The notes beneath the pieces were generated by a model, which worked only from the letters and a program-made list of their open reading frames with translations, made no database searches and was not told the origin of the DNA. From positions 18,389,645 to 18,453,644 of the forward strand of contig OV121088.1 in assembly GCA_921293015.1 (NCBI GenBank): DNA of 64,000 nt, given 5' to 3'. Numbering within the stretch: the stretch's first letter is position 1; each line of letters opens with the position of its first letter. The position numbers were made by a program, and so were the translations under genes. The stretch is from Phorcus lineatus. Its lineage: Eukaryota; Mollusca; Gastropoda; Trochida; Trochidae. Positions 5,811 to 61,225 of this stretch are shown here, one piece after another.

Positions 5811-7390
5811 ATTTTGGCATTTCGGGATGGATATGTGAGATGTTATGAATGAAAGCCACCATCATTGGTGTTCTGACACGTATTAAAGTCAATTAAAATA
5901 CAATGGAAATCATGTTTTGTTGCTTTTAAAAATGTATGGAAAATCATCAATTCGATATGAAAATGAAAGGGATTTTCATGAATCATAGATTTATTGTTTC
6001 TTTTAACAAATGAAACTGCATGTATATGTTTGACACATATCCTACTCTAAAGACATAAATATAACAGCCCTATAACGTATGAACATACGTAATGTGATCA
6101 AATAATTTCATCATCTGAAGAGATAGAATAGAATATCCTAGAACATTCAGTACCGATGTCACACTTCCAAAGCCTTGTGTAATTTGACAGTGATTTAACA
6201 TTACCAACATAAACGGAGAAACACAATGAGTAATTTAGATTTGTTTGATATCACGTCAGTTGGTTAGAGCATTTCAAAACTGGATGGTGAACAGTATCAA
6301 TAAAGACAAGTCTCTGGGTTCTGCTACAAGTTCCTCTGCACTTTAAACCATCAATTTCTGTTTGTTTTCTGTTCTGTTTGAGAGACAGGCCATTTCATCA
6401 AATTATTTAACATCTGCGAAATTTCAATAAACTACCGTAATAAATTTAAAACCAACAAACAAATATTAGGTCTTTGTTAATTTTCAGCGAAAATATGTAT
6501 TGACATCAACATTTCTATTATTTCAAATCACCATATTGTCTTTTCCCAAATTGGAATTTTTGAAATTGATAAATGATCCTTGTTCTTAAACTTGACGAGG
6601 TGGAAAATGATTGAATTATGAAATTCTGCCTTTACTGATTTCGTCAGTTATGGATATCTATTAATTGGGAAAGCTATGCGATATTAAGCTGTCACCAGCT
6701 GTATCTGTTTTCTCATTCTTCATTATTTTCATTACATGATCAATCAAACATATTACATGAGACGGGTCATTCAGACCTAGCTCGAGCTAGTATCTTGTCT
6801 GACCTTTTCGCATGGACCTCGAAGTACACGTACATTTACTCTATAGGCAATCATCAAAGTTGTGTTATTTATCAAAACTAGTCTAATAAACATCTGTCAT
6901 CATATGCGTAAAGTGCTGCAACATCCAGTGATGCATTTCATCTTAATTGTGTATCACTTACAGCGTGACACAAAAAGCTTAGATATATTTATAAAAATAG
7001 CATTAAATAACTTCCATATGTAATTCAGTGTGCGTTCATTCCCGTATTTCTTGCATCGGGCCCTATATTTTGTGCTTTACGTGCCAGCTCTTGAATGCAG
7101 CTCTCAGCTTCAAGGCGCTCTCCTCTCTGCCGGAAATGGACAATCACTTAAGCTCCATTATCGGAAATTTAACTTTTGTTTTAAGTGTTACAATTACCGG
7201 ATTCAGTCGCATTGTAGCACTTCCTATTTTTAAAGATATTTTAACTTTAAAGTAATTTATTGTATTCCATTTCATGCCGTTAAGAATTAATATGTCATTT
7301 ACGTAACGTGAACATTCCGTTGCTCTTTAAATATTGATCCATATATTTTAAGTTTTGAATGGTAAGTAGTGCAGTTGGCAAGTAGATTCA
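5811..7390. other. No supported feature
   Basis: The two overlapping frames near 7028-7255 show no known motif and no good start context. I see no repeats. Confidence 0.45.
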
Positions 7391-8911
7391 CAGGATGATG
7401 TACAGGTTGATGTACAGGTTGATGTACCGGACGATGTACAAGATGATGTTCAAGAGAATGTAAAGGTTGATGTACAGGATGATTTACAAGATAATGTAAA
7501 CGTTTATGTACAGGATGATGTACATGAGGCTGAGCGGGATGATGTACAGGATGATGTACAGAATAGTGTACAGGATGATGTACAGAATAGTGTACAGGAT
7601 AATGTACAGGATGGTATACAGGATAATGTGCAGGATGATGTACAAGAGAATATACAGTTTGATGTACAGAATGATATACAGGTTGATAAACGGGTTGATG
7701 TACAGGATGATGTACAGGATGATGTACGGGATGATGTTCAAGAGAATGTACAGGATGGTGTATAGGTTGATGTACAGGATGATGTACATGATGATATACA
7801 GGATGATGTACAAAATAGTGTACAGGAGGATGTTCAGGATGATGTACAAAGGATGTACAATATAATGTAAAGGTTGATGTACAGGAAGATGAACAGATTG
7901 ATGTACAGGTTGATGTACAAGAGAATGTAAAGGTTGATGTACAAGAGGATCTAAAAGAGCATATTGTACAGGACGATGTACAGAATAGTGCACAGGATGA
8001 TGTTCATAAAAATGTAAAGGTTGATGAACGGGATGATTTACAAAAGAATGTAAAGCGTTGATGTACAGAATGAAGTACAAGAAGGTGTACAAGACGATGT
8101 AGAAGAGGATGGGCAGGATAGTGTACAGGATGATGTACAAGAGAATGTACAGGAAGATGTACAGGTTGATGTACAGGATGATATACAGTTTGATGTACAT
8201 GATGATGTACAAGAGGATGTACAGGAAGATGTACAGGTTGATGTACAGGAGGATGTACAGGAGGATGTACAGGAAGATGTACAAGTTGATGTACAGGAAG
8301 ATGTACAGGATGATGTACAGGTTGATTTACAGGATGATGTACAGGATGATATACATGATCATGTAAATGATTATGTACAGAATAGTGATGATGAACAGGA
8401 TGATGTTCAAGAGGATGTAAAGGTTGATGTACAGGAAGATGAACAGATTGATGTACTGGATGATATTCAAAAGGATGTACAATTTGATGTATAAGAGAAT
8501 TTAAAGGTTGATGTACAGGTTGATGTACAAGAGGATGTAAAGGTTGATGTATCGGATGATGTTCAAGAGGATGTACATGTTGATGTACAAGAGAATGTAG
8601 AGGTTGATGTACAGTATGATTTAAAAAAGGATTTAAAGGTTGATGTACAGGATAATGTACAGGATGATGTACAGAATAGTGCAAAGGAGGATGAAAAGGT
8701 TGATATACAGGATGATGTACAAGAGGATGTACAGGTCGATGTACAAGAGGCTAGACAGGATAGTGTACAGAAAGATGTACATGATGATGTACAAGAGGAT
8801 GTACAGGATGGTGTACAAGAGATTGTACAGGATGATGTACAGGTTGATTTACAGGATGATATACAGGATTGTGTACAGAATAGTGTACAGGATGATGTAC
8901 AAGAGAATGTG
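7391..8911. repeat. Minisatellite: about 127 copies of a 12-bp unit (GATGTACAGGWK)
   Basis: The array is built of GATGTACAGG followed by AT, TT, AA or AG, with variants such as GATGTTCAAGAG and AATGTAAAGGTT. Because 12 is a multiple of three, most frames stay open on both strands. This produces artefact 'proteins' of 266, 226, 119 and 117 residues with MYRM, LYII, VHHP or CTSS repeats. A few units are 11 or 13 bp long and break frames (for example near 7848). A 35-bp variant string starting AGGTTGATGTACAGGAAG occurs at 7871 and again at 8421, hinting at a ~550-bp duplication inside the array. No flanking exon, signal peptide or splice evidence supports a gene. Confidence 0.95.
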
Positions 8912-12059: not shown

Positions 12060-14470
12060 GTTACCTGCCACATTCACCTCGCACGACCTCGTTAGACGTA
12101 GATGACTTTACACCCATGCTAGAACATGCACCGTTTCAATGGCTTTACAAGCCTGCGATAGTCCCCATATTTCAGCACCATACAGCTAAATTGGAAGAAC
12201 CTTTGATTCGAAAACATTGAAAAATAATCTTAAGGGCAATGGTTTGATATGGGAAAAAGAACGTTGGATACCAAAAAGAGCCCTTTTTGCTTGCAAAACG
12301 ATATTATCAATCTGTCTTGTCCAAGATAAAGTTTTGGAAAATACTACACCTAGATACTTATAGGAAGAAATACATTGCAGCTGGACACCCTTATAAAACC
12401 ACTTCTCGTGTTTTGATTGACCACCACCACCTTTAAATGTAACAACTTTTGTTTTATCCATATTTCCAAAGAATAATTAACACAATATTCCTCAAGAATA
12501 TCTATGCGCTTTTGGAGTCCGAATATAGTATCAGAAATAAGAACAACATCATCTGCAAACAAGAGTAGAAATACTTGAATTATATCAGGGTGGAGCTGAA
12601 TTCCATAATCACATTCCGCCTCAATAGCTACAGCCAAATCATTAATGAATAAATTAAAGAGTAATGGACTTAAAATACATCCCTGTTTAAATCCAAGACC
12701 AGACCAGAATTTCTTTGCAAAATTATTATCCAATTTTACACAAGCGTAGACATACTTATGAATAGATTGAAAAAAAGTATACATTTTGGGAGATATACCA
12801 TTTGCATTTAAAACTGCCAGCAAATTTTGCCTATCTGTAGAATCAAAAGCCTTAGAGAAGTCCACAAACAGGGCATAGATTTTACCTCCTTTCTTAGATA
12901 AATAATGCTCAATAATAGACGTAGGACAAATATATTATCCACTGTGGAATATCCACGTCTGAATCCAGCCTGAGACCCACTAACCTTGTCATACGCATCT
13001 GACCAGAATTGCAACCTAACATTTAAACCAGATTTTACAGTTTACTGAAAACACTTAATATTGAAATAACCCTATAGTTATCCGGGTTGTTAACATCACC
13101 TTTCTTATAGACTGGGACGATATGGCCTACTGACCAGGAGCTAGGGAAGTATGCTGAATCAAACATGGCATTAAACAATGCAGTTAGAAATGGTACAATT
13201 AAGTCACTTGCACATTTAAACATTTCTGCAATTAGATGATCATCACCTGCTGTTCTATTGTTCTTTAGTCTATTGATAGCATTTACTATCTCTTCTTCGG
13301 TAGAAGGAGAGTCAAGAATATTCTGAGTAGAGTCATCAAAATCATTGTAATACACATGATCATCACTAGCAACATCAGTAGAAAAAACATTTCTGAAGTG
13401 CGAAAACCGGCTTTGATTTTTTATGTTGTCCTGACAATTTTTTTAACATTGGACCAGAATAGTTTAGAATTGTTCATGTTTTTGGAAATACATTCAATAA
13501 TGTCATCATGGTAGCACTTTTTCTTGTATTTTATTGCATTGGCATAAATGTTCCCAGCAAGGATATAATCGTCTAACTGTTCTTTCTGATTGTTTGTACG
13601 AAACACTTTAAGAAGACGTTTTTCAGAGCGAAGAAATTGGAATTCTTTGTCGAACCAAGGTTGACGTATGTCAGCAGAATGACATTTTTGCTTCATAGAG
13701 TCAGCAGCGGTGCAGAACATGTCAGTGAACATGGATAATGCACTATCAAAATCTTCCGAGATAACTGAGTCCAGACAGTCGTCAAGTTTGTCGACCGTAG
13801 ATTGAGACATGAGCACGTCTCTAAATAACGCCGCGTCGTCTTCCTTCCAAACCCTACGGTGGCCGGGCGTTGTTTCACGTGCACCACGCTTGCTATCGAC
13901 ACCAGTCAAACCACGTGACTGAAATGAACAAGATAGTGGAATGTGATCCGAGTCTGACCTTGATATTATGTCAAACGAGGAGCAGTTTGTAAACAAATCC
14001 AGAGACATGATGATATAGTCCACAACACTGATGCCTGTATGGCTGATAAATGTTAAGTCACCCTTGTTGGTATCAGAGCCGCAGCGGCCATTACAGATAT
14101 GCAGGTCTAGTGTTCTACACATGTTCAATAGTGATCTACCGAAAGAATTAATGATTGCATCACAAGAGATACGGGCACATGATTTTCATCAGTACAATTA
14201 TCATTGATTTCTAATCTTTCTGATAAGTCACATACCAACTCATCCGTTTCTGAACCCGTTCTGGAGTTGAAATCACCCCCTAATATTATGTCACAGTCAC
14301 CATATACAAAAGGCTAATACCTGATTTAGAATGTTGGTTTTGATACGACGTTGACCATTCTGGGTTGATATAAACACATGCTATAATCACATCTTTGTTT
14401 CTTTTGAAATGAGATTTATCAATGATAAGATCGACAGTATTCAGGGATGTAACATGGCCCTATACGGGCG
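12060..14470 (-). mobile_element. Decayed LINE: endonuclease C-terminal part plus reverse transcriptase (minus strand)
   Basis: Reading the minus strand from 14470, an APE-type endonuclease remnant shows DVIIACVYINPEW (about 14400), GGDFNSRTGSETDEL (about 14270) and SDSDHIPLSCSF (about 13930). The SDHxP box is the catalytic His/Asp motif. A linker follows, then the reverse transcriptase: NRTAGDDHLIAEM, then SSWSVGHIVPVYKKGD and DNYRVIS (13250-13080), AGFRRGYSTVDNIFVL (about 12960), DFSKAFDS (about 12860), GFKQGCILSPLLFNLFINDL (about 12690) and FADDVVLIS (about 12550, the catalytic YADD-type box). The thumb region is SSYKYLGVVFSKTLSW (about 12360), and the last trace is LYGAEIWG (about 12170). 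Several frameshifts break it. Both ends are truncated: there is no endonuclease N-terminus, no C-terminal knuckle and no 3' tail. It is a dead copy of the clade seen at 15.8, 19.3, 55, 56.5 and 61.3 kb. I do not assign the clade further. Confidence 0.9.
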
Positions 14471-14802
14471 AGTAATAAATTGCGTATTTGCTTAGTATAG
14501 CTATACATACCATTCACACCCATCAAAAGTCCATGTTTTTAATGTACAACTTCTTTATAAAACATTCCTATTCATTAAAAGCGATCACAACTCAAGGTAT
14601 TTTAATTATTAAACAGTATACATTTCAAGTGAAGGAATACAAAAAAAAGTGTCTGAATCACATATGTACTTTTACCAAACCATATAAATAAAATTAATTT
14701 GATTTCGTTACTTTCTTTTTTTATTTGGCACATAAGATATTAAAATCCTAATGACTGCACATCTCTTGTATACCACCGTATGGTCTCGCTACGTGTGCCA
14801 GT
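14471..14802. other. No supported feature
   Basis: AT-rich spacer. The 67-codon frame at 14488-14691 has no recognisable motif. Confidence 0.4.
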
Positions 14803-15570
14803 GTCCCGGTATAAATTCGCCCCAGTATAAATCTCCCAACATCACAACTGCAAGTATACTACGATTGTCGTCTTTGACCCCTCTTAGTATCAACATCAAA
14901 CCCAGTATAGATTCGCCCCCTCTAAGCACTTACATCAACCCTAGTATAGATTCACCCCCTCCAAGCATTTGCATCAAACCCAGTATAGATTCGCTCACTA
15001 AAAGGTATTTAAGTATATTCATCCAATCCAGTATAGAGTCTCCTCTAAGCATTTACATCAAACACAGAATAGATTCGCCCCTCTATGCATTTACATCAAA
15101 CCTAGTATAGATTCACCCTCTCCAAGCATTTACATCAAACCCAGTATAGATTCGCTCACTAAAATGTATCTAAGTATGTTCATCCAATCCGGTATAGATT
15201 CGCCTTCTCTAGGCATTTACATCAAACCCAGTATAGCTTCACACCCTCTTCGTATTAACATCAAACCCAGTATAGATTCTTCCCTCTCCAAACATTTACA
15301 TCAACCCCAGCATAGATTCACCCCTCCAAGCTTTTACATCAAACCTAGTATATATTCGCCAACTAAAATGTATCTAAGTATGTTCATCCAACCCAGTATA
15401 GAGTCGCCCCCTCTAGCTAAGCATTTACATCAAACTCAGTATAGATTCGCCAATGTATCTTAACATGTTCATCCAATCCAGTAGAGAATCGCCCCTTCTA
15501 AGTATGTTCATCCAAACCAGTAGAGAATCACCCCTTCTAAGTATGTTCATCCAAACCAGTATAGAATCTA
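14803..15570 (+). repeat. 39/48-bp satellite (CCAGTATAGATTCGCCCC)
   Basis: The core CAGTATAGATTCGCC is followed by CCTCTAAGCATTTACATCAA in 39-bp units. In longer 48-bp units it is followed by ACTAAAATGTATCTAAGTATG then TTCATCCAA. AGTATAG boxes at 14904, 14943, 14982 and 15030 show the 39, 39 and 48-bp spacing. Because 39 and 48 are multiples of three, open frames of 119 and 99 codons with IKPSIDSP repeats arise by chance. A piece of the 62-bp satellite unit is embedded at about 14834-14873. Confidence 0.92.
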
Positions 15571-15780
15571 TTATATTTCTATATATAAAAGTACCATCAT
15601 TATTCTGTTAAAGTCAACTCAATACCATATAGACTCAGTCAAAGTTGACTCAGTATCGATTACTACAATTATGGTTCAATTAAATCAGTGAACGTTGGCT
15701 TAGTACCATTGATCTTTGAACTGATTAAAACTTCAGTCACTATAAAAGCGGTTCTAGTATAGATCAATATAAAATCGTCA
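15571..15780 (+). repeat. Post-satellite flank with GTTGACTCAGTA motif
   Basis: It contains AGTCAAAGTTGACTCAGTAT and related GTTGGCTTAGTACCATTGAT text, similar to the sequence just before the 62-bp array at 10.3 kb. It is noncoding. Confidence 0.4.
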
Positions 15781-15782
15781 GA

Positions 15783-16320
15783 TGTGATTGTTAAATCAAA
15801 TGGTCCTGATTGTTTATGATCTAAATTTTTTCCCAAACAATTTCATGCTAAATTTAACAGACGTAAAAAGACAAATAATGATGTGCCATTGGCTTATTTT
15901 CATGCCTATTTCAAAGAGCTTGCTGGAGACTCTGATAATACCCAGTCAAATAAAGCTGGTTTGTTTGAGGACATTGTTGTACCCGAACTGGATAAGGAGA
16001 TTACCACAGCTGAGATTAGTTTTTCAAAGCGTGATAAATCATACGGTCCTGATTGTATGATAAATGAATATTTCATTGAATTTGATGAATATTTTACGCC
16101 TCTTATACACAGAATTTTTAACTGTATTTTATCAACATTTTTTTCCCTTCAAGTTGGTCATTTGCGGTCGTAATACCAGTTTTCAAGAAAGGAGATAGCA
16201 GAATTCCAGGAAATTATCGTCTCATTAGTTGTTTTGGGAAGCTCTTAACGAGAAACAGGAAATTACAAAAGTTCACCAGTAACCTGAAGTTGGTGCCAAT
16301 CAACGCCGAATTGTATTGTA
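15783..16320 (+). mobile_element. LINE B, 5' fragment: start of reverse transcriptase
   Basis: Translation shows MPLAYFHAYFKELAGDSDN, then DKEITTAEISFSKRDKSYGP with DCMINEYFIEF. After a frameshift near 16140 come SSWSFAVVIPVFKKGDSRI and PGNYRLISCFGKLL (16155-16245). These are the fingers boxes of LINE reverse transcriptases, ahead of the catalytic palm. A further trace, LQKFTSNLKLVPIN, runs to about 16310. The rest of the same element resumes at 19318 after LINE A. About 70-80 bp of the expected sequence between the two pieces is not visible. It is a dead copy with frameshifts. Confidence 0.8.
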
Positions 16321-16324
16321 GTGG

Positions 16325-19317
16325 ACCTTCTATTACATTTCAGGCCTATGATGGGGTCCTACGTCAATAGTAGATTATATCCTTTTGTCTGATGATATTG
16401 CAGCCCTCACTGAATCAGCATGCGTACTCGATGATAACCCTCTAAACGTTTCTGATCACCATCCAGTCATATCCAAGATTTTGTTGAGTACAAATAAGTA
16501 CTCTAACACTGAAGATCCTGTTATCCAAGTTCTGCTGGGATAAGGCTGTACAAGACAACTCGATTTCTAACTACACATTTGCAGTTTCTCATCTACTGTG
16601 GGAGGTCAAAGTTCCAGAAGTTGGATGTCCTGATTCTGATATTGAATCATTCTACAGACAAATTATCGACGCCTTACTGGAAGCAAGCAATATTAACTTA
16701 CAGAAACGTAAATTCAGGAAACACATCAAGCCATATTGGAAGGGAGCAGTGAAGGGGTGCCACAAAGCCATGTTAGAACGGCGTTCTGAATGGATCATTG
16801 AGGGTCAACCTAGAGGCGCAGAATACGAAACCTATAGGGCATACAAAGAAGCTAAGGATGATTTTAGGTACAAGATCCGATAGGCTTCGTCACTATACGA
16901 AGCAGAGTACTTCAACCACATCGACAGTGCTGGAGATATTGACCAGAAAACGTTTTGGTCACTCATTCGTCGAAACAAGAAACAACAAATAGTATCTCTT
17001 GAAGTTGGACATCGGAAATACGGGATGACGTAGAGCTCTGTGAAGCTATGTCAGAACATATGCAACAAGTCTTAGCAGACAACAATGAGACCCACTTTGA
17101 TGCAGAGTTTCGACAGGATATCGAGGAACGTGTCCACGGGATTCGTCTCAACTTAAAGCAATCCGAGGAATCAATGAACGTCAATCTCACAACACAAAAG
17201 GAAATAGACTCTCTGTGCAGGAACCTTAAAAACAACAAAGCTTGTGGTCTGGACAACATCTTCTATGAACATCTTAAACATGGTGGAAGGTTCTTATACC
17301 ATATGCTCTCCAGTCTGTTTAATCTCATTCTCAACACTGGATACATCCCTCTGCAATGGAAGAAAGGCGTGATAGTGCCAATATATAAGGGTGGAAAGAA
17401 AGCTCGTACTTCTCCAGACTCTTATCGTGGTGTGTCTTTACTGCCTGTGATCTACAAGGTGTTCGAAATGGTTCTCAGCAAAAGGATGCCTCAACTCACT
17501 GACAGCAAGATGTTCCCATCCAATCAACAGTGCGGCTTTATGAAGGGCCTATCCTCTTGTGACACATCGTTCATGGTGCAAGAGACTAAAAACCATTATA
17601 TGGAGAGATATGATGTGTTCTTGGACAGCGCAAAAGCCTTTGACACTGTTTGGCATGCAGGTCTGATGTACAAACTGCATCAAATAGAAATCCCTGCCCC
17701 ACTCTGGAAACTATTTGACAACATATATAGCTCAGTTGAGAGTTGTGTATTTGTTAATAACAAAGTGTCCTCATGGTTTCAACTGTACAAGGGTGTTCGA
17801 CAAGGCAGTGTGCTCTCGGCTAAACTCTACCTCCTGTACATAAATGAACTTCTCGAGCAGCTCTCATCAAGTAACAAAGGTGCGATCGTCCTTGACCTGC
17901 AGATAACGTCTCCAACTCAAGCAGATGCAATGGTATCATGAGCCCAGTCTCCACCTGTGTGCAGGATATGCTGTCAATATGTGAGAAATACAGCGCAAGA
18001 TGGCGATTTACTTTCTCGCCTACCAAAAGCAAACTGATGAAGTTCTCCAAAAAAAATGAAATCAACAGACTTTCGACTCTACGGCAAAGTTATCCCTACC
18101 ACCTCGGATATCAGACATGTAGGGATCATCTTTGAAGCATCTTCAAATACATGGGAGAGAACTCTTGATGCAGTCTCCAAACATAGTGCTTCCTCTACTG
18201 CTTTGATAAGCTCCGGTCTTCACGCTAAAGCTCTGAGCCCAATAACTAGTTCCAAACTGATACAGTCTGTCTGCATTCCAAAAGCCCTCTTTGGCTGTGA
18301 ACTCTGGTCGAAATTGTCCTCACATGAACTAGTTGCTCTTGAAAGAGCTCAACGGTTTGCTCTAAAGCAAGCCCAAGGCCTTCCTCGACGCACTAGAACA
18401 GACATTGCTAACTCACTCCTGGGATGGTCTCCAATAGAAGCTAGCATAGAGATCAGAAAACTCTTTTTCCTAGGACATCTATGTCACTGTGGAAATCATC
18501 TCCTTCCAAAGAAACTGTTTTTGACAAGACTCTCTCTTCATCGATATAATTGTGCACCATCAATTGTAGGCTTTGTTCAAGACATTTACAGGGTACTTTC
18601 CAAATACAGACTGGTTGATCATCTTGAGAGGTTTATTGCGTCCGGCTCATTCTTGACACAAGAGTTATGGAAAAGGAAAGTGAAGGAGACAGTACGAATA
18701 CACGAACTGGAAGCGTGGAAACAAAGGATAGCTGGGGATCCGGACACACGTCACTTCCTGGAAATTCACCCTGAAGTCACCCCTCACATGGCCTGGAAAG
18801 TTGCAAAGATGGGTCCCTCCCTGAAGACTGCTGCCAGATTTGTGGTGAACCTGTGTGCTGCCTGGAGACCTGGAGCTGCTTGTGGACAGTGTGAGTTGTG
18901 TGGTCAAGTGTACGGTGACCTCCTTACCCATAGGATATGTCACTGTACCTCCCTGCAGGACCCTCGAGAAGAGCTATGGTGCCACATCATATGTGTGTCA
19001 CCTATAGACTGCAGTGTTACATTACATGCAAAAGCAGAATATGATCTCACAACCAGTTTGCTATCATGTAAGCCTCCCATAGAGTTGGACTCTGAGACAA
19101 TCATGGACTATGCCAAAGTGACAGTGAGAGGACTGTATGCCCTGAATGCTCCTCCACAGAACCATAGACTCTAAACTCGGTACTATCGCATTTTTCGCAT
19201 TTCCAAAACTGTCGCATTTATCGCATTCCATCATTCACTGTTTTCATAATTTAATGTAACTCCTACAGCATTTCTGTACTCTCTTCAAGAGGAATAAAAG
19301 TTTATATATAGTTAGCC
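16325..19317 (+). mobile_element. LINE A: near-3'-complete retrotransposon (endonuclease end, reverse transcriptase, C-terminal knuckle), interrupting LINE B
   Basis: The 5' end starts inside the endonuclease: VDYILLSDDIAALTESACVL, then NVSDHHPVISKILL (SDHxP box, about 16460). A linker follows (HIKPYWKGAVKGCHKAMLER). The reverse transcriptase frame at 17048-17941 holds NNKACGLDNIFYEHL, WKKGVIVPIYKGGKK, SYRGVSLLPVIYKVFE, NQQCGFMKGLSSCDT, SAKAFDTVWHAG, KGVRQGSVLSAKLYLLYINE and PTQADAMVS. The usual second catalytic aspartate (ADD) reads ADA, next to a frameshift at about 17938. WRFTFSPTKSKLMKFSKK follows, then a second frameshift near 18056. The last long frame (18056-19174) carries the thumb (SDIRHVGIIFEASSNTWERT) and the C-terminal Cys/His segment CELCGQVYGDLLTHRICHC. 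A noncoding 3' tail with TCGCATTTTTCGCATTT repeats ends at AATAAAAGTTTATATATAG. Two frameshifts, stops in the linker and a damaged active site make it inactive. It looks younger than its host, LINE B. Confidence 0.9.
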
Positions 19318-20702
19318 TCGGTCTTAATAACAATAAACATGTGTATTGTGCCTTTGTGGATTTTAAGCGCGCATTTGATTCTATAGATAGATAGAAGATG
19401 TGGTTTAAGTTGTCGAATCTTGGTATGAATGGGAAGTTGCTGTCAGTTATTTATTCGTTGTATTTGAATGTTAGATCATGTGTAAGTGTTGGAGGTTTCG
19501 TTGGAGATGAATATTTCAAGAATAGTATTGGCTTACTGCAAGGTGAAGATCTATCTCCAATTTTATTTTCATTTTATCTCAGTGATTTTGAGGTCTCGTT
19601 TTGGGAAGATAATTGTAAGCCCTATAAGTATAAAGCTCTCAGTATGTTTTTTTGTGATGTATGCAGATGATTTAGTTTTAATTTCAGAATCAATTGAAGG
19701 ATTGCAGTCGCATTTAGATTCGTTGTCCAGTTACTCTAATCGGTGGGGACTAGAGGTTAATGTTGCTAAGACGAAAATAGTTTGTTTCAGAAAAGGTGGC
19801 AAACGTAGATTATCGGAACATTGGTGTTTTAATAATTGTGCACTTGAGGTTGTCGACAGTTTTACATATTTGGAAGTTGTCTTTAATTATAATAACAAGT
19901 TTACAAAGGCTCAATTACAACTTGCAAATCAAGGCAGGAAGGCACTATTTTCACTTTATAATAATATACGGTCACAGGTTTATGTGAGGAAGCGGAGGCT
20001 CGTGGCTTGAATAATTGGGCGTATCAGCTGATGGCAATATTGATTAGCATTGGTTTTAATGAAATTTGGTTGAGGCAAGAACTGTCGTTTACAGAATTAC
20101 TTGTTGTAAAACAACGATTATTAGATCACAAAATCACAAAATATTTTTTAGGACTTTAGCTACTTCTTCAAAATGTGTCATTTATAGAAATATTATTGAT
20201 AGCTGTACACTGCAATATAATCTTTGTAAGTCAGTCCCCTACTTATATAGAAAGTATTTAGCGAAATTTCGACTAAGCTCACACAATCTTGCAATTGAAA
20301 CTTTCAGATACTACAATGTAAACATTAATGAAAGAAAATGTACATTTTGTAAAGATACTGTTGAAGATGAATTCCATTTTATATTATTATGTCCATATTA
20401 TATTTATTTTAGACAAGTTTATATCAAACCTTATTATTATCGACGTCCTTCCGTATTTAAGCTTATCCAATTATTAAGTGTTAAAAATGTTAAAGAATTC
20501 TGTAACATAGGCAAATATTTGTATAAAGCTAGTTGTTTAAGGAATGAATTGATTGTTAGCGATTAGTGATTTTTTGTACATTCTCCCCAACATAACCTAT
20601 TATTATCATTGTATAGTCATTATCCACCTGTACCAATCTCCGTCTTTATTATGAACTGATTATCTGTAAAGATAAAAGTGATAAAGAATCTGAATCTGAA
20701 TC
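19318..20702 (+). mobile_element. LINE B, 3' fragment: palm, thumb and C-terminal knuckle, with (GAATCT) tail
   Basis: Directly after LINE A the frame HVYCAFVDFKRAFDSI appears (about 19337). Next come LLQGEDLSPILFSFYLSDFE (about 19530), then after a frameshift YADDLVLISESIEGLQ (about 19664) and WGLEVNVAKTKIVCFRKGG. The thumb is DSFTYLEVVFNYNNKFTKAQ. The last open frame (20066-20566) carries RKYLAKFRLSSHNLAIETFR and ERKCTFCKDTVEDEFHFILL with CPYY. This CxxC...H...C knuckle is typical of LINE C-termini. The 3' end is GATAAAGAATCTGAATCTGA, a short tandem tail usual for this kind of LINE. It is broken by several frameshifts. Confidence 0.88.
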
Positions 20703-43152: not shown

Positions 43153-44388
43153 AGATGATGGCTTATCTTATTATCTTATCTTATATCACGAAGTTGTGTT
43201 TCTATACTATACTAAAATAGCCCTATCACCATAAATATTTGGGTTACGGTGCCATACAATGGCTTATTATAAAGGGTACAAAGTCCTCTATAAGTAGATA
43301 TAAATATATATAACATGAGCATTGACATTGAAATGCTACATGCAAAAAGGCTGGTAAATGGAGCATGAAAATGACATTTGAACACTTAAAAGTAGCCACA
43401 TTCGGCGAATAAAGTACATGAATGATGAAAATAGGTACAAGGATGTAAAGTACATGGTTTAAAGTACGGAACATGTACTTTCAATATATACAATAATTGG
43501 TGACATTTCATAAAAGTGCATTAGATGGGAGGCGGGAAAAAGGACGCACGCTCGAACCGCGTGACACTCACTCATTTGCGCAGGAGAGTGTTCTCAATGA
43601 TGCCACGGCCGTTCTTCTCTGCATTTGTGGTGCCTTTGAAGAACTAGATTTCTACCCTCTGGACATGACATAAGGTTGCCAACAGGATGACGGATCCAAC
43701 ACAACCCGCTAATGATACCATGGCATTGTATTTGCAGGGTTAAGTGCCGTATCGGGACACGTAAGCGGCAACACAAAAGTTTGACAATTAACGAACTCAT
43801 GTAAGAGAGAAAGAAATGTGGGGCTGCACGTTCATTTAATGTCCTCTAATGAACGTGCAACTGTGTTTTTATGTGTTTTACCGAGTGTGATTTTTACAAC
43901 TTATTGTGCATTGTTGACTTTTACAAAATGTGCATGTCATTTAATAGAAACGTTTCCTTGATCCCAATCAAATAATATAAGTAGTATCCCACAGTCTATT
44001 CATCAACTGAAATGTGATTATAATTACTTTTGATAATGTTTCTTCTGTACAAAGCTAGTGTATAATTACATAAATGGAGCTAAAGCCTCAAAGCTTTATC
44101 TTCTTAACTACAAAGAAACATCCTTCAAGGAAATACCTAAAATTACAGTTCGGGACCGCGGCGTAAATGAGTTAGTGTATTACGCTGACAGGCTCTTTGA
44201 TAAACAAAAGAACGTATTTTCTTATTAATAAACGTAAGGGGAAAATCCAAGGCTTTTTGACCTTTAAAATTGAATGATGAACAACAGAATAGTTTAAGTA
44301 AAAAGAAACAAACATGACGTATTGATAGAGCCATCTTTGGCACGCGTGTTAAATGACACATCCCCGTTAGCAATCTTATTTACATTCA
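43153..44388. other. No supported feature
   Basis: Short unrecognised frames only. Confidence 0.4.
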
Positions 44389-44675
44389 CAGGGTGGAAAT
44401 ACCCTGAATCCGTTTGCCGGATCCCCTGCCGGATCCTCCGGATCCTCTCAACAATGGTATACTGGGATCCGTCGCCGGATCCCTCACCGGATCCGGGATC
44501 CGGGCGGACACCGCCGGATCCCTTGCCGGATCCCCAGTAGATCAGAATACAGGGATCCGGCGCCGGATCCCTCACCGGATCCGGGATCCGGACGGACACC
44601 ACCGGATCCCCTTCCGGATTCTTAGTAGATAAGAATACTGGGATCCGGAGACGGATACCCTACCGGATCCTCTCC
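44389..44675 (+). repeat. GGATCC-palindrome element, copy 1
   Basis: A 287-bp block with 16 GGATCC hexamers, many within longer palindromes (CCGGATCCGG). The left end is a small hairpin, CAGGGT-GGAAAT-ACCCTG (44389-44406). An 88-bp tandem subunit is visible from GGGATCC boxes at 44464, 44552 and 44640. Each subunit holds GCCGGATCCCTCACCGGATC, then CGGACACC and an AGTAGAT(C/A)AGAATAC spacer. A nearly identical inverted copy is at 48574-48854. The PDP/GSG-rich frames across it are repeat artefacts: it is open on both strands and has no conserved start. It is far richer in G+C than its surroundings. No target duplication was found and the class is unknown. Confidence 0.92.
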
Positions 44676-45715
44676 AAGTTGTAAGAGTAGGCAAGAATGT
44701 AAAAAAGGTTTATCATCTCATGATCAATATTCTTAGAACCTTCAAGAATTTGCACGTATGAAGATTTTCCTAAAAAAAAGTATCATACTAGTATCTTTGA
44801 TACCTTCTACTATCATATTCCTGAAATGATATTGTCAACTAGTAACATTATTATATAAATGACTATTAAGTGTTTGTTTTAACCTATAGCTTTTAAAATA
44901 TTTGTTTGTGTAAGTGTGTTACCCTGAGTGGTCAGGATTAACAGAAACTTATTGCTTGAAAACAACTTCTCTAAACTAAAACTATTGAGTCTTAACTTTT
45001 CTTTTCAGTAGACATTAGAATTTAAATTCTTAGAAAGTCAATATTACCCAGCGATACCACTTTAAAAACTTTTTCTTTGAAGTTTCATTAACGATAAGAT
45101 TTCATCGCAACATCCAAATGGTATTTTACTTTAATTACAATAAGAAAGAAATTTTCTCAACAGGCTACTTTAATTTTATCGAAGCACGGTTCAATATTCT
45201 ACACTGTAACGCTTGAACGCACACACTTGATCAATACACCTGTCAGCGTATACACATTCACCTAGACTCATTTGTGTCTTATTGCTGCAACAGGTGAAAG
45301 TGCAAGTAATTATGCGGTAAGTGGGTATGCTTTAACCGACAAGACGGCGCATCATAACTTATGATTAATGAAAGTTATTCTTAGTATTGAATAATATATG
45401 AATAGTAAAAAATAACAAACACATATGTACATTGTTAAACATGTATTCATTTCATCATGATGTACATCAAGATCAATCCATTGTAACAAGATATCAAAAG
45501 AATAACATTTATGTAAATAAATAAATATCATCTCATTGAAATAAATTCAAAATTTAATTTTGTATTGGAGCGGCATTAATATAAGCTTCCAGCTTATTTG
45601 CCAATCCATTTCATTGAAATATATAACATATGTTTAAACACACATAAAAGGTACATCTGTTACCTATAACAACATAATTACATTGGTACTAACTGTTTCC
45701 TTCTCAACTGCTCTA
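44676..45715. other. No supported feature
   Basis: AT-rich. Only the first ~25 bp (AGTTGTAAGAGTAGG) weakly resemble the flank of the other GGATCC copy. Confidence 0.4.
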
Positions 45716-45719
45716 CTAT

Positions 45720-46300
45720 TTCGACAAAAGAGTTGTCATGGGATATCCATATAAATTCTATGATCAAGAAAGTTAGCCCTCTGATAAGAAGCCTTAAATA
45801 TCGTTTCCACGGAAAAGTTTGTAAATTATTTATAATTCCTTCATCTTACCAAGGAACACTGCAGTTTACTGGAAAAATTTAATCTAGACGCTTTAAGATC
45901 AATATGAGGAGCAGTTTGCGGTACAAGCCATAACCTATTATATGAAAAAAATAATCAAAAACCACTATCTGAACGTGAATATGTTTCTAAACTAACACGT
46001 TTATACAAAATGAAGAATAATTAGCGCCTCAGTTATATCTCTGCAACCTCCTTCCTAGAATACCTAGTACAAATGATTACAATCTCAGAGATCATTCATC
46101 TGTGCGAACAGTACAATGCAGAACGGCGACATATGTCAAGTCTTTTTTACCAGATACAATAAAACTGTGGAATTCATTAACTCTCGACATTCAAACCATC
46201 GATTCGTTAACTGGCTTCAAACATTCCTCTTACTTTTTTCCCGATCACCCATTTCAACGTAGACCATCAGGTCACGTTCTCATTGTTGCAATCATCTAAA
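45720..46300 (+). mobile_element. LINE 3' coding remnant (C-terminal region of reverse transcriptase protein)
   Basis: In one frame: LEKFNLDALRSI, stop, GAVCGTSHNLLYEKNNQKPL, then SEREYVSKLTRLYKMKNN (45873-46020). After a frameshift come NDYNLRDHSSVRTVQCRTAT and FLPDTIKLWNSLTLDIQTID (46075-46205). The 'FLPxTIxLWNSL' ending is the common C-terminus of many animal LINE polyproteins. The RT catalytic part is absent and there is no intact frame. It belongs to a clade distinct from the knuckle-ending LINEs elsewhere in the window. Confidence 0.8.
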
Positions 46301-47404
46301 AAGTACTGGATGTTGTAACATCAATGAGCATAAATAATTTAGCTACAGTACAGCCGCATGAAATCGGTATTTCTATTGAAGGGAACAACAAATTAAACTA
46401 ATTCGTTTTTCTATTTGATAAAGCAATCAGACTAATAATACAATTTTAGCAAAGTACTTCACTTATAGATTGTTTCATGTTCAACGATCACGAGTATGAA
46501 TTGCAGGAATGAATATAAATGATATATATGATATGTGTTTAACTCATTTTAGTTACAGTATAGAAATATTTTCAAATAATAAAGTTCTTAAATTAATCTT
46601 ATGTTTTACAGTGTAAGGTAAGTCTAATTCTTCGCCCAAATCATTATGTTGGATGTTTGCGGATGTGTATTCGTACTCCACCAAAGGGTTAGATACCTCC
46701 GGTGGTTAGTCAATACACAGTGTCATGTATATAAGGAATGTCTATACCAGTAAGTATTTTACGTGTGTATGTGCCTTCAATTTAATCCGATGACTTCAAG
46801 TAGTCCCGCGTAATTATACTCCTTTTGTTAGTTCCCCGCCTATAAGCATTTTGGGGTCATAAAACACCTGCATACAATTACAGGCAATCAGACAAGAGAC
46901 AGGTAGACGAGCTCAACGAACCGTAGCAAGAGAGACGGTGGAGAGGTGGGGGGGGGGGGGGGTGGGGGGTTAATTCATTACTATCCAAATGAATGTAACA
47001 TTTTCATTTATCATTAAATATTGTAATAGCACTAATTGTAACCCATACACGTGAAATATACTGTTTATAATAAGTTCTTTCTTTGAAATAATAATGCCGT
47101 TCAATGACAAGATATATTATGAATCTTGAAGACCTACCAATTTCAAAATGATGTTGTAGATATGATGCAAACTACCTTTTAAAAAACCTGTCATCCAGAA
47201 ATCAAAGGACAAATTATTAAAGGAGCTTTCCTGAATCTAGAATATGTTGTCAAATCTAGTTGCAAGAAATTTTTTCATAACAACTTTTAAGAACCATAAT
47301 TATAATCATGTCTTAAACAATCAAACTGAACATATTTCATCACTAGGCAACTTTTGGTTCATGCATCCACAGCCAGTACCCTAAATGAAGATTACCGTAT
47401 ATAA
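46301..47404. other. No gene; G-run at 46945-46969
   Basis: A run of Gs broken by single Ts occupies about 46945-46969 and could form a quadruplex. The rest is AT-rich and without motifs. Confidence 0.5.
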
Positions 47405-47820
47405 CAATGTATAAGGTGACCACGTGTGTAAGGTGCCCCCCCCAATTGTGCTTCGGTTCGAGGTTATTATTTCTTAGAAAACAATTTATTTCCATAATTA
47501 ATATGTAATATTTATAAAAGTAATTTCATGACGTTTTTTTGCCGATGAATTGACATCAAGGCGTCTCTCTCGGCTGGAGGATCGTCACCTAACCTCAGAA
47601 TGTTTAGGCCTGAAACATAGACCTATGTGTATAAGCCGCCGCCCCCCCTCTCCCCTTCAATAACGTATATAGCTAGGCTCCAGGCTGGCAGGTCGACATG
47701 ATTACGGACCGTAAACATAAACCTCGTATATAAGGTGACCCCCCTCCTTGACCCCTCAATTTCTGGTATAAAAAACTCGCCTGATACGCTGTAAGATACG
47801 GTCATAATTTCACTCACAGA
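47405..47820 (+). repeat. C-rich dispersed repeat with TATAAGGTGACCCCC-type motif
   Basis: GTATAAGGTGACCACGTGTG with TAAGGTGCCCCCCCC (47410-47447), TGTATAAGCCGCCGCCCCCC (about 47628) and TATATAAGGTGACCCCCCTC (about 47728) share one motif. The last two sit about 100 bp apart in parallel contexts (GGCTGG, then ACAT(A/T), ACCT, then the C-run). The element class is unknown. Confidence 0.6.
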
Positions 47821-48573
47821 ATGGGTTTAATAAATTTCTGAAATCTGACAATGTTGCAATTACCTTTGTTCAGGTGTATACTTGGTTTTGTATAATTATG
47901 TTTAAATAAAATCACACTTGAAACACTACCCTCAGGTGCATACAGATTTATAGATATATATGTTTATACGATTTTTTTTATATATTTAAGTGTGTGTGCG
48001 TTTGTAAATAAATGTTTGAAATCATTGAATAGAATTATTTTTTATTTAATTTGTATACTAAAGTTTTGCATATCTATAAGTGATCTATGGTATATTATCT
48101 AAGCGAATTCATTTACAATATTAACCCTAATGTAACACCCTAATTATGCAAGTTGATATGGGTACTGACCAACAGGTGTGATGAGCGTGCATTCAAGCGT
48201 GACAATTGGTGCTGAATAGTATACGTTACCATGGTTATTTCAGAAAGTATTTTGAATAAATTTTGATAAGAAATAACCCCTTAAATTCTGATTCCGAATA
48301 AATAGTGTTTTTCTGAAGATTGTGTTTCAATTTGAATCGAATCATCAAAACATTATCATTTAAACTTGACTTTGTCAGCTTTGGCTAACAATCTTTCACA
48401 AAGACATATCAACACTTATTTTTTCTTTATAAATGCAAACGGCCTTTATATGACAATATCATGTAAAGAATATGTAAAAGCTGTCAAAGATGTATGGTGT
48501 ATTGTTGTGACAAAACCTTTCCTAACTTTAAAAAACTTCATTTTTCTAAACTACATTCCTACTTTCGCTACAA
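47821..48573. other. No supported feature
   Basis: AT-rich, no motif. The 101-codon frame at 48366-48671 runs into the GGATCC element and is not convincing. Confidence 0.4.
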
Positions 48574-48854
48574 GGAGAGGATCCGGTAGGATCTCCGGAT
48601 CCCAGTATTCTTATCTACTAAGAATCCGGAAGAGGATCCGGTGGTGTCCGTCCGGATCCCGGATCCGGTGAGGGATCCGGCGCCGGATCCCTGTATTCTG
48701 ATCTACTGGGGATCCGGCAAGGGATCCGGCGGTGTCCGCCCGGATCCCGGATCCGGTGAGGGATCCGGCGACGGATCCCAGTATACCATTGTTGAGAGGA
48801 TCCGGAGGATCCGGCAGGGGATCCGGCTAACGGATTCAGGGTATTTCCACCCTG
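48574..48854 (-). repeat. GGATCC-palindrome element, copy 2 (inverted)
   Basis: Reverse complement of 44389-44675 with few differences: again 16 GGATCC hexamers, the same two 88-bp subunits, and the end hairpin at 48837-48854 (CAGGGT...ACCCTG). The main differences are a short deletion near 48587-48592 and scattered substitutions (AGAGG for AGGGG-type). The two hairpin ends face outward, so the pair brackets 4.47 kb (44389-48854). Confidence 0.92.
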
Positions 48855-49877
48855 TGATTATATATATAAATGACTTACATTCATTACATACACATGTTTA
48901 TTACATTTTGTTTTCCGTAGATAAAGTCTTGGTGTCATTATTTGTCATGCGCAGCATGTCAAAGCTTAGAGACTCATGAAAATACAAAGATTTTCATTTA
49001 GTGTAAGCATTTGTAGAAGACGCCCATCCCACAGCATCTGCTTTAGAGACTGTTACAACAATTCCTGCAGTTTTCATAAGATTGGTTTCCTACCTTTCTA
49101 CCGAAGCTTTGGTCACTGGCTTGTGGGATTTAAAATAACTTAAATAGAGAATAGTTCTGTCTCCAACTACTGTTGTACAATCAATATAAACATTTTAACA
49201 TGGATTTACACAAAGATTGGATTACTCTGAATAAAATTTTACTACAAATTAGTGAGGTTATGAACCTGGTTTTGGATTCGTGTATGCCTAGTCAAATATC
49301 AACAACAACAAAACCTGTCGCTCTTGTAAGTCAACTAATGATCAGCAAGATGACTAGCGGAAGATTGATAGATAAATTGGGAAGCATACAGATCTGTATC
49401 CTTGGGCCCTATCAGATTTCCTTGTGGGAAAAATTGTGATTTGAAATCCTGTTGATGAGTCCCCATAATTAAGTTGCTACCAATCTGACTCTAAATTCTC
49501 CTTTTGGGAGTGGCAATGAATGTTTAATGCTATCCTCTAGATATGACAGAAGTCCCAGATCTTCGCCAACTAGACTAGAAAGCAAGAGCGTTGGCTCATA
49601 AATTTCTTGAGTCAATTCACGAGTTGTGGATGCAATTTGCATTTGAAGATATGCAAAAATGATAATGAATAATGTAATCATTACCCTCACTAGACAGAAA
49701 GTTTATAATACAAAGAAACCAGTCTTTGAATTTTGGTCAATTGACAATGCAGAACCTTTTGAATTTCATGATGATATTTGTCACTTTAATTTGTATCACT
49801 TATTTGAACCCAAGAGTTCAGGTTCTGACTGGAAGCAGCCTGGGTGGTGGGGATTCTAATTTTTATATTTGTTGACC
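48855..49877. other. No supported feature
   Basis: Frames at 49173-49439 and 49659-49859 are open but unrecognised. The second (KKPVFEFWSIDNAEPFEFHD) looks mildly protein-like, but I cannot place it. Confidence 0.35.
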
Positions 49878-60518: not shown

Positions 60519-61225
60519 ATCCCCCGCCCCAACGTAGTTGGCGGGGGATATTGAAATGGTCTCCGTCCGTCCGTTCGTCCGTTCGTCCGTTCGTCCCGAT
60601 AATGTTTCAACTTCTTTGCATTTTTATTTTTACCCGTTTCCATGGAAACGTAACATAGGATTTTGTTTCCGGAGCACAACTCCAAAACGGTGAGACCTAT
60701 CTCGACGAAACTTGCTATGTGCAACGGGCATCATGCGGAGATGTGCCTTTTGGGGTTTTCAACTTCTTTGCATTTTTATTTTTACCCGTTTCCATGGAAA
60801 CGTAACATAGGATTTTGTTTCCGGAGCACAACTCCAAAATGGTGAGACCTATCTCGACGAAACTTGGTATGTGCAACGGGCATCATGCGGAGACGTGCCT
60901 TTTGGGGTTTTCAACTTCTTTGCATTTTTATTTTTACCCGTTTCCATGGAAACGTAACATAGGATTTCGTTTCCGGATCACAACTCCAAAACTGTGAGAC
61001 CTATCTCGACGAAACTTGGTATGTGCAACGGGCATCATGCGGAGATGTGCCTTTTGGGGTTTTCAACTTCTTTGCATTTTTATTTTTACCCGTTTCCATG
61101 GAAACGTAACATAGGATTTCTTAAAGGTTGTTTGTAGAAAAACAACATGATCACTGTTCAATATTCCACAACTAGTATCCTTAACTACCCTTTCCCTTTG
61201 GCGGGGGATATAGCTGACTCTGTCT
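60519..61225 (+). mobile_element. Pearl/Helentron-like element with 152-bp tandem core
   Basis: The left end is a hairpin with perfect 10-bp arms, ATCCCCCGCC / GGCGGGGGAT (60519-60528 and 60540-60549), followed by a CCGTTCGTCCGT patch. The core has 3.4 copies of a 152-bp unit starting at 60605, 60757, 60909 and 61061 (partial, to about 61117). Units are nearly identical and each carries the 16-bp palindrome CGTTTCCATGGAAACG and CGACGAAACTTGGTATGTGC. The right arm repeats GGCGGGGGATATAG (61201-61214). Open frames spaced exactly 152 bp apart are repeat artefacts. Short terminal arms plus a tandem core match the design of non-autonomous pearl/Helentron elements. Near-identity of the units suggests recent expansion. 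Confidence 0.75.

Follow-up and report, generated by a model that had tools for sequence, protein, structure and literature searches.

We consider it likely that the GGATCC-rich stretch at positions 44389-44675 of the window (the whole 64-kb stretch of DNA that was analysed) forms the left TIR of a cut-and-paste transposon that is non-autonomous and belongs most likely to the EnSpm/CACTA type (CMC group). Paired inverted ends, 3-bp target-site duplications and many near-identical copies were observed, together with an empty site. The sequence-only reading had taken the stretch for an element in its own right and of undescribed design. Instead, a DNA transposon with many copies has this stretch as its long TIR, and near-terminal arrays of short direct and inverted motifs that can form stem-loops are described for CACTA transposons in the available part of PMC2613891. 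A striking pattern is thus resolved, with an ordinary explanation as the end of a multi-copy transposon.

Borders and parts of the element

The 44389-44675 stretch belongs to the left TIR of a 4,470-bp DNA transposon at 44387-48856. An inverted partner of the 287-bp stretch lies about 4 kb away and the pair frames the element; what had been read as two separate copies in the window proves to be a single element's pair of inverted ends. Its termini are CACAGGGTGGAAATACCCTG ... CAGGGTATTTCCACCCTGTG, in the arrangement ATT / CACAGGG...CCCTGTG / ATT. The end pattern of the family is CACAGGGTG[AG]AAATACCCTG, and the ends are GGATCC-rich. The parts of the window element are as follows.

44384-44386, no strand: left target-site duplication, ATT, 3 bp
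44387-44675, plus strand: left TIR, 289 bp, 16 GGATCC; 99-100% identity to the 40 scored (best-scoring) of 666 candidate places
44389-44406, plus strand: terminal hairpin
44459-44634, plus strand: two full 88-bp subunits, 78/88 bases alike; a partial third runs to about 44670
44676-48573, no strand: AT-rich interior, no transposase frame found; short frames, no EnSpm match
45561-46224, plus strand: three old LINE fragments (reverse-transcriptase side), matching a LINE in locus L018 at 72-78% DNA identity
47574-47580, plus strand: empty site CTGGAGG, occupied elsewhere in the family by a 1,107-bp MULE-like insert
48574-48856, minus strand: right TIR, 16 GGATCC; matches the left TIR at about 97% identity
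48857-48859, no strand: right target-site duplication, ATT, 3 bp

The LINE that gives the matches to the fragments at 45561-46224 is an insertion in locus L018. We take the LINE frames to be reverse transcriptase; a 270-aa LINE piece had no match in Pfam. No Rfam match was obtained at gathering score over 43800-49400, and a comparison of the element with a phage collection gave no match.

Other features were seen elsewhere in the window. A 12-bp tandem array with 126 copies of ACAGGATGATGT is present at 7390-8901, where long open frames occur on both strands. An 8-bp array of TCCGTTCG, followed by a 152-bp unit (3.4 copies at 97%), is located at 60562-61119. Several open frames at 12350-20566 presumably resemble pieces of LINE reverse transcriptase and endonuclease.

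The left TIR as an array of directional words

Counting bore out the claim of sixteen GGATCC hexamers within 44389-44675, a number far above the mean of 1.4 and the maximum of 6 in 2,000 dinucleotide-preserving shuffles of the 289-bp stretch. Across the 64-kb window 38 are present, with a mean of 7.04 and a largest value of 15 in 100 shuffles. The 88-bp internal tandem subunits were likewise real (2.4 copies with 88% matches; the full units, compared pairwise, have 78/88 bases equal), and so was the end hairpin. This hairpin, CAGGGT-GGAAAT-ACCCTG at 44389-44406, lies within the outermost 20 bp of the TIR. The true outer end of the left TIR is at 44387, two bases outside the hairpin, and reads CACAGGGT.

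The description of the stretch as nested GGATCC-centred palindromes was right as to the general design and needs correction as to the nesting. Since only two of the 16 GGATCC reach the longer palindrome CCGGATCCGG, most of the sites are directional CCGGATCCC-type words, not long nested palindromes. The CCGGATCC words of the left TIR occur in both directions, at spacings mostly of 7, 12, 20 and 25 bp. The TIR is a GC-rich island, with a GC content of 0.61 against 0.33 in the interior of the element. Its predicted folding is strong (z -9.1). This is no demonstration of a cruciform, because an array of self-complementary words is expected to fold.

The number of GGATCC per end was 16 in 31 of 36 ends, 15 in four and 10 in one damaged end. 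Conservation of the hairpin end, which had been proposed as a check, was found at 36/36 ends, all of them keeping CACAGGGT and ACCCTG; these ends were picked for their similarity to the window end. The mismatch rate among copies was 1.2% inside GGATCC and 2.0% outside, a difference reached by 15 of 288 circular shifts. The lower rate is suggestive only; as the copies are young and non-independent, the deficit is weak evidence.

Copies in the genome

The genome searched comprises 958 Mb in 74 contigs, with the window on contig C13. The 287-bp query gave 666 candidate TIR places in its own genome, so the earlier proviso that only two copies might exist no longer applies. The best 40 of these 666 were scored: 38 span bases 1-287 and two span 1-286, at 99-100% identity, and the 41st match is partial. 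For end pairing, 20 stretches around listed TIR places were fetched, and both ends were inside the stretch in 16 of them. In the copies the outer end-to-end distance is 3.6-5.7 kb. L024 and L025, where the stretch edge truncates the second end, and L018 and L027, where the second end was not found, were excluded from the duplication count. A private repeat was ruled out by the 16 two-ended copies.

A search with an older TIR as query gave 519 candidates; the 40 that were scored, apart from the query itself, were 77-90% identical to it. Therefore, the family also has older members. It has apparently been moving recently. As its exact borders are known, it can be masked and named.

Target-site duplications and a natural empty site

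Alignment of the edges for target duplications, another check that had been suggested, was carried out with the true ends placed two bases outside the hairpin. CACAGGG..(CCCTGTG) was present at both ends in all 16 two-ended copies, and an exact 3-bp duplication flanks 14 of them. Lengths of 2, 4, 5 and 8 bp fit 0/16 copies; with no match at the lengths counted from 4 bp upward, the 3-bp match in 14/16 leaves no room for 6, 7, 9, 10 or 11 bp. As a control, the left flank of one copy was paired with the right flank of another, and 8/240 such pairings agreed. Shifting the frame outward by 1-6 bases gave matches in 0, 0, 0, 2, 0 and 0 of the 16 copies.

The two copies that miss the duplication are neighbours on C2, L019 and L020 (C2:7452379-7465675). 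Their elements [E] are 99.9% alike and flank a 2.3-kb piece in the order ATA[E]TTA - 2.3 kb - TTA[E]ATA. The duplications are exchanged, with ATA outside and TTA inside, as if the whole composite had been mobilised as a single unit or alternative-end transposition had taken place.

A natural empty site is provided by L028, which is inserted within an older TIR of the family. When the element and one TAA are removed, the flanks align to the TIR consensus and the junction is gap-free; other gaps in this alignment reflect bases lost from the older TIR.

The tandem 88-bp units and the strong predicted folding could be taken to speak for a free-standing palindromic or satellite-like element that has nothing to do with transposition and serves as a cruciform or an array bound by host proteins. 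Its copies, however, are inverted pairs at the ends of elements with 3-bp duplications, the interiors of all 16 two-ended copies contain no GGATCC, and L028 supplies the empty site. We regard such an element as scarcely credible against the left TIR of a transposon.

The duplications also bear on two other types of transposon, which the counts do not fit. hAT has an 8-bp duplication (5-7 bp in subgroups, according to the available text of PMC12730594), against 0/16 copies here at 5 or 8 bp. Chapaev3 resembles the window family in its CAC..GTG ends and 3-bp duplication and differs in that every one examined duplicates TWA, as stated in the part of PMC4079192 that was available. Only 2 of the 14 exact duplications of the window family fit TWA (TAA), and the other 12 read otherwise, for example CGG, ACC, CCA and AGA.

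The MULE-like frame in a nested insert

The longer copies contain a 166-aa frame, which we take to recall MULE/FLYWCH proteins and for which no Pfam match was obtained. Relatives with frames of up to 496 aa are present in the genome. A Mutator-like (MULE) transposon, with the 166-aa frame as a remnant of its own transposase, could be considered on these grounds. The frame lies, however, within a 1,107-bp segment that has its own 7-bp flanking repeat and for which other copies show empty sites. Eleven of the 16 two-ended copies contain this segment wholly or for the most part. In L012 (L012:4649-5755) it carries CTGGAGG on each side; the window copy, L010 and L021 are without it and have a single CTGGAGG, and in L028 it is missing as part of a larger gap. 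DNA of the segment was also seen, with the same starting border, at three of four further loci that have no GGATCC TIRs in the stretches examined. In view of its own 7-bp repeats, the empty sites and these TIR-less loci, the segment is a passenger, nested and independently repeated, and its frame was rejected as the transposase of the element. Mutator (MULE) duplications measure 8-11 bp and those of IS256/MuDR taken together 4-10 bp; no copy of the 16 fits 4, 5 or 8 bp. That the family is Mutator-like is very improbable and is contradicted by the empty sites.

Two further observations concern the segment. Among its first 50 listed places, 22 lie no more than 8 kb from a TIR on the list. In L013, two CTGGAGG enclose only 12 bases of the insert, a pattern suggestive of an almost complete loss or of an excision footprint.

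Search for a transposase or an autonomous partner

EnSpm transposases are present in the genome. PF02992 was found at 10 places, with frames of up to 920 aa; 67 stretches match an 840-aa relative, and a second, divergent EnSpm group that is supported by Pfam has 40 matches. Three EnSpm transposases of this genome gave no profile match when compared with the elements; tblastn found nothing in the window copy, and its lone line against the elements covers 20 aa at E 0.94, in L018. The interior frames are short in the window copy and in the other copies. Lacking a match to these transposases and having short frames only, the family is non-autonomous.

The proximity of TIRs to EnSpm places was compared for 80 of the several hundred candidate ends. 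None of these 80 listed TIR places lies less than 20 kb from the 32 EnSpm places of the PF02992 and 840-aa-relative sets, and none lies within 20 kb of the 40 matches to the divergent group, the nearest being 296 kb away. L043, L044 and L048 were rejected as direct partners, with no CACAGGG ends and no GGATCC array in the stretches examined; the same negative result was obtained for L047, L049 and L050, in about 3.3 kb each. As neither a transposase of the family nor an autonomous partner was found, we only infer the EnSpm superfamily.

CACTAC-ended EnSpm copies of the same genome

L044-L046 form an EnSpm group with an 861-aa frame and encode a Transposase_21 protein. At their CACTAC end, the similarity of two copies stops directly behind TTTTTGTAGTG (one more base is common), and the third has lost its last bases; neither a second end nor a target duplication was seen. 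Tandem units of about 80 bp adjoin this end, with GGAAACC/GGTTTCC in both directions. These copies are like the window family in having a CAC-type end (seen at one end only), tandem units and a bidirectional word; they are unlike it in the word, GGAAACC, and in encoding Transposase_21. The sole notable DNA match between the two is 61 bp in the upstream flank, far from the CACTAC end.

Three EnSpm loci were read on their 3' side. A mixed-direction array was seen in C16 only, AT-rich tandem units in C25 and a 167-bp unit in C37. Because the GGAAACC array of C16 stands beside a CACTAC end, an EnSpm end in this genome can share the layout of the window ends with a different word. The GGATCC and GGAAACC arrays, the latter beside CACTAC, offer within one genome a comparison for the joint divergence of transposase and end array in animals. 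In L054 (C37:83825-85736), an 840-aa EnSpm transposase frame is followed downstream by about 11 tandem 167-bp units, which run to the stretch edge.

Class of the family and possible role of the array

The window family has the CAC..GTG termini, the 3-bp duplication of no fixed sequence and the subterminal array of direct and inverted motifs that characterise EnSpm/CACTA. Such termini together with 3-bp duplications are consistent with EnSpm, as far as the available text of Kojima 2025 (PMC12730594) goes. The non-autonomous element might instead owe its movement not to EnSpm but to a transposase of the AcademX type or to another that makes 3-bp duplications. AcademX duplications are given as 3-4 bp in the available part of PMC10045372, a range that includes the 3 bp (and 3 bp only) seen here. 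Academ is abundant in bivalves in the text available of PMC10294476, a point that is relevant only if the host is a bivalve. Against this, a 4-bp duplication was found in none of the 16 copies, the combination of CAC..GTG with a 3-bp duplication agrees with EnSpm in the same part of PMC12730594, and EnSpm genes are present in the genome, one group of them with a similar array. We therefore consider an AcademX-type or other such transposase unlikely and retain the EnSpm/CACTA assignment.

In an EnSpm/CACTA-type element, a transposase of EnSpm type encoded elsewhere in the genome would cut at the CAC/GTG ends. The transposase or a partner protein would bind the repeated CCGGATCC words in both directions, and this binding would bring both ends of the element together. 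The terminal hairpin would belong to the end that gets cut. By analogy with CACTA subterminal repeats, the GGATCC array is most likely a putative transposase-binding region, which makes the protein-binding array of the sequence-only reading the likeliest role. CACTA transposons carry bidirectional arrays of short motifs near their ends; an element-encoded protein binds these arrays, which are cis-determinants of excision (PMC2613891, available part). In position and composition the GGATCC array corresponds to them, with bidirectional words in 88-bp units at both ends.

Comparison with known systems

The window transposon family is probably new and of a known kind, as judged without a comparison to a repeat library (Repbase/Dfam). 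No GGATCC-array transposon is named in the titles and abstract openings that were surveyed, the word GGATCC having been used in a small part of this survey. It is conceivable, if doubtful, that an animal EnSpm-type lineage took the whole accessory-protein array into a long, homogenised TIR of palindromic words. This would imply an undescribed second DNA-binding protein of animals in the role that TNPA has in maize, with its own word in each transposon lineage of this genome (GGATCC in the window family, GGAAACC in the CACTAC-ended copies).

SmTRC1 and the other animal CACTA relatives consulted are, like the window family, transposons with inverted ends and are animal members of the CACTA superfamily. 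As published in the available part of PMC1636069, they differ in having CCC ends and 2-bp duplications, and the TIR of SmTRC1 is 54 bp. These CCC ends and 2-bp duplications count against the EnSpm class, as does the length of the 289-bp TIR compared with the 54 bp of SmTRC1 and the 13 bp of Tgmt*.

From EnSpm/CACTA the window family departs in its CACAGGG rather than CACTA ends, in the palindrome-cored word CCGGATCC and in that no transposase was found; defective (non-autonomous) relatives are described among EnSpm/CACTA in the same available part of PMC2613891 that treats Tgmt*. At each end of the window family the array forms part of a 289-bp TIR that is nearly perfect, whereas Tgmt* of soybean has 13-bp TIRs and asymmetric arrays. 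Tgmt* and En/Spm, as presented in that part of PMC2613891, share with the window family the CAC..GTG ends, the 3-bp duplication and the bidirectional arrays able to form stem-loops, and the arrays of Tgmt* can fold into palindromes.
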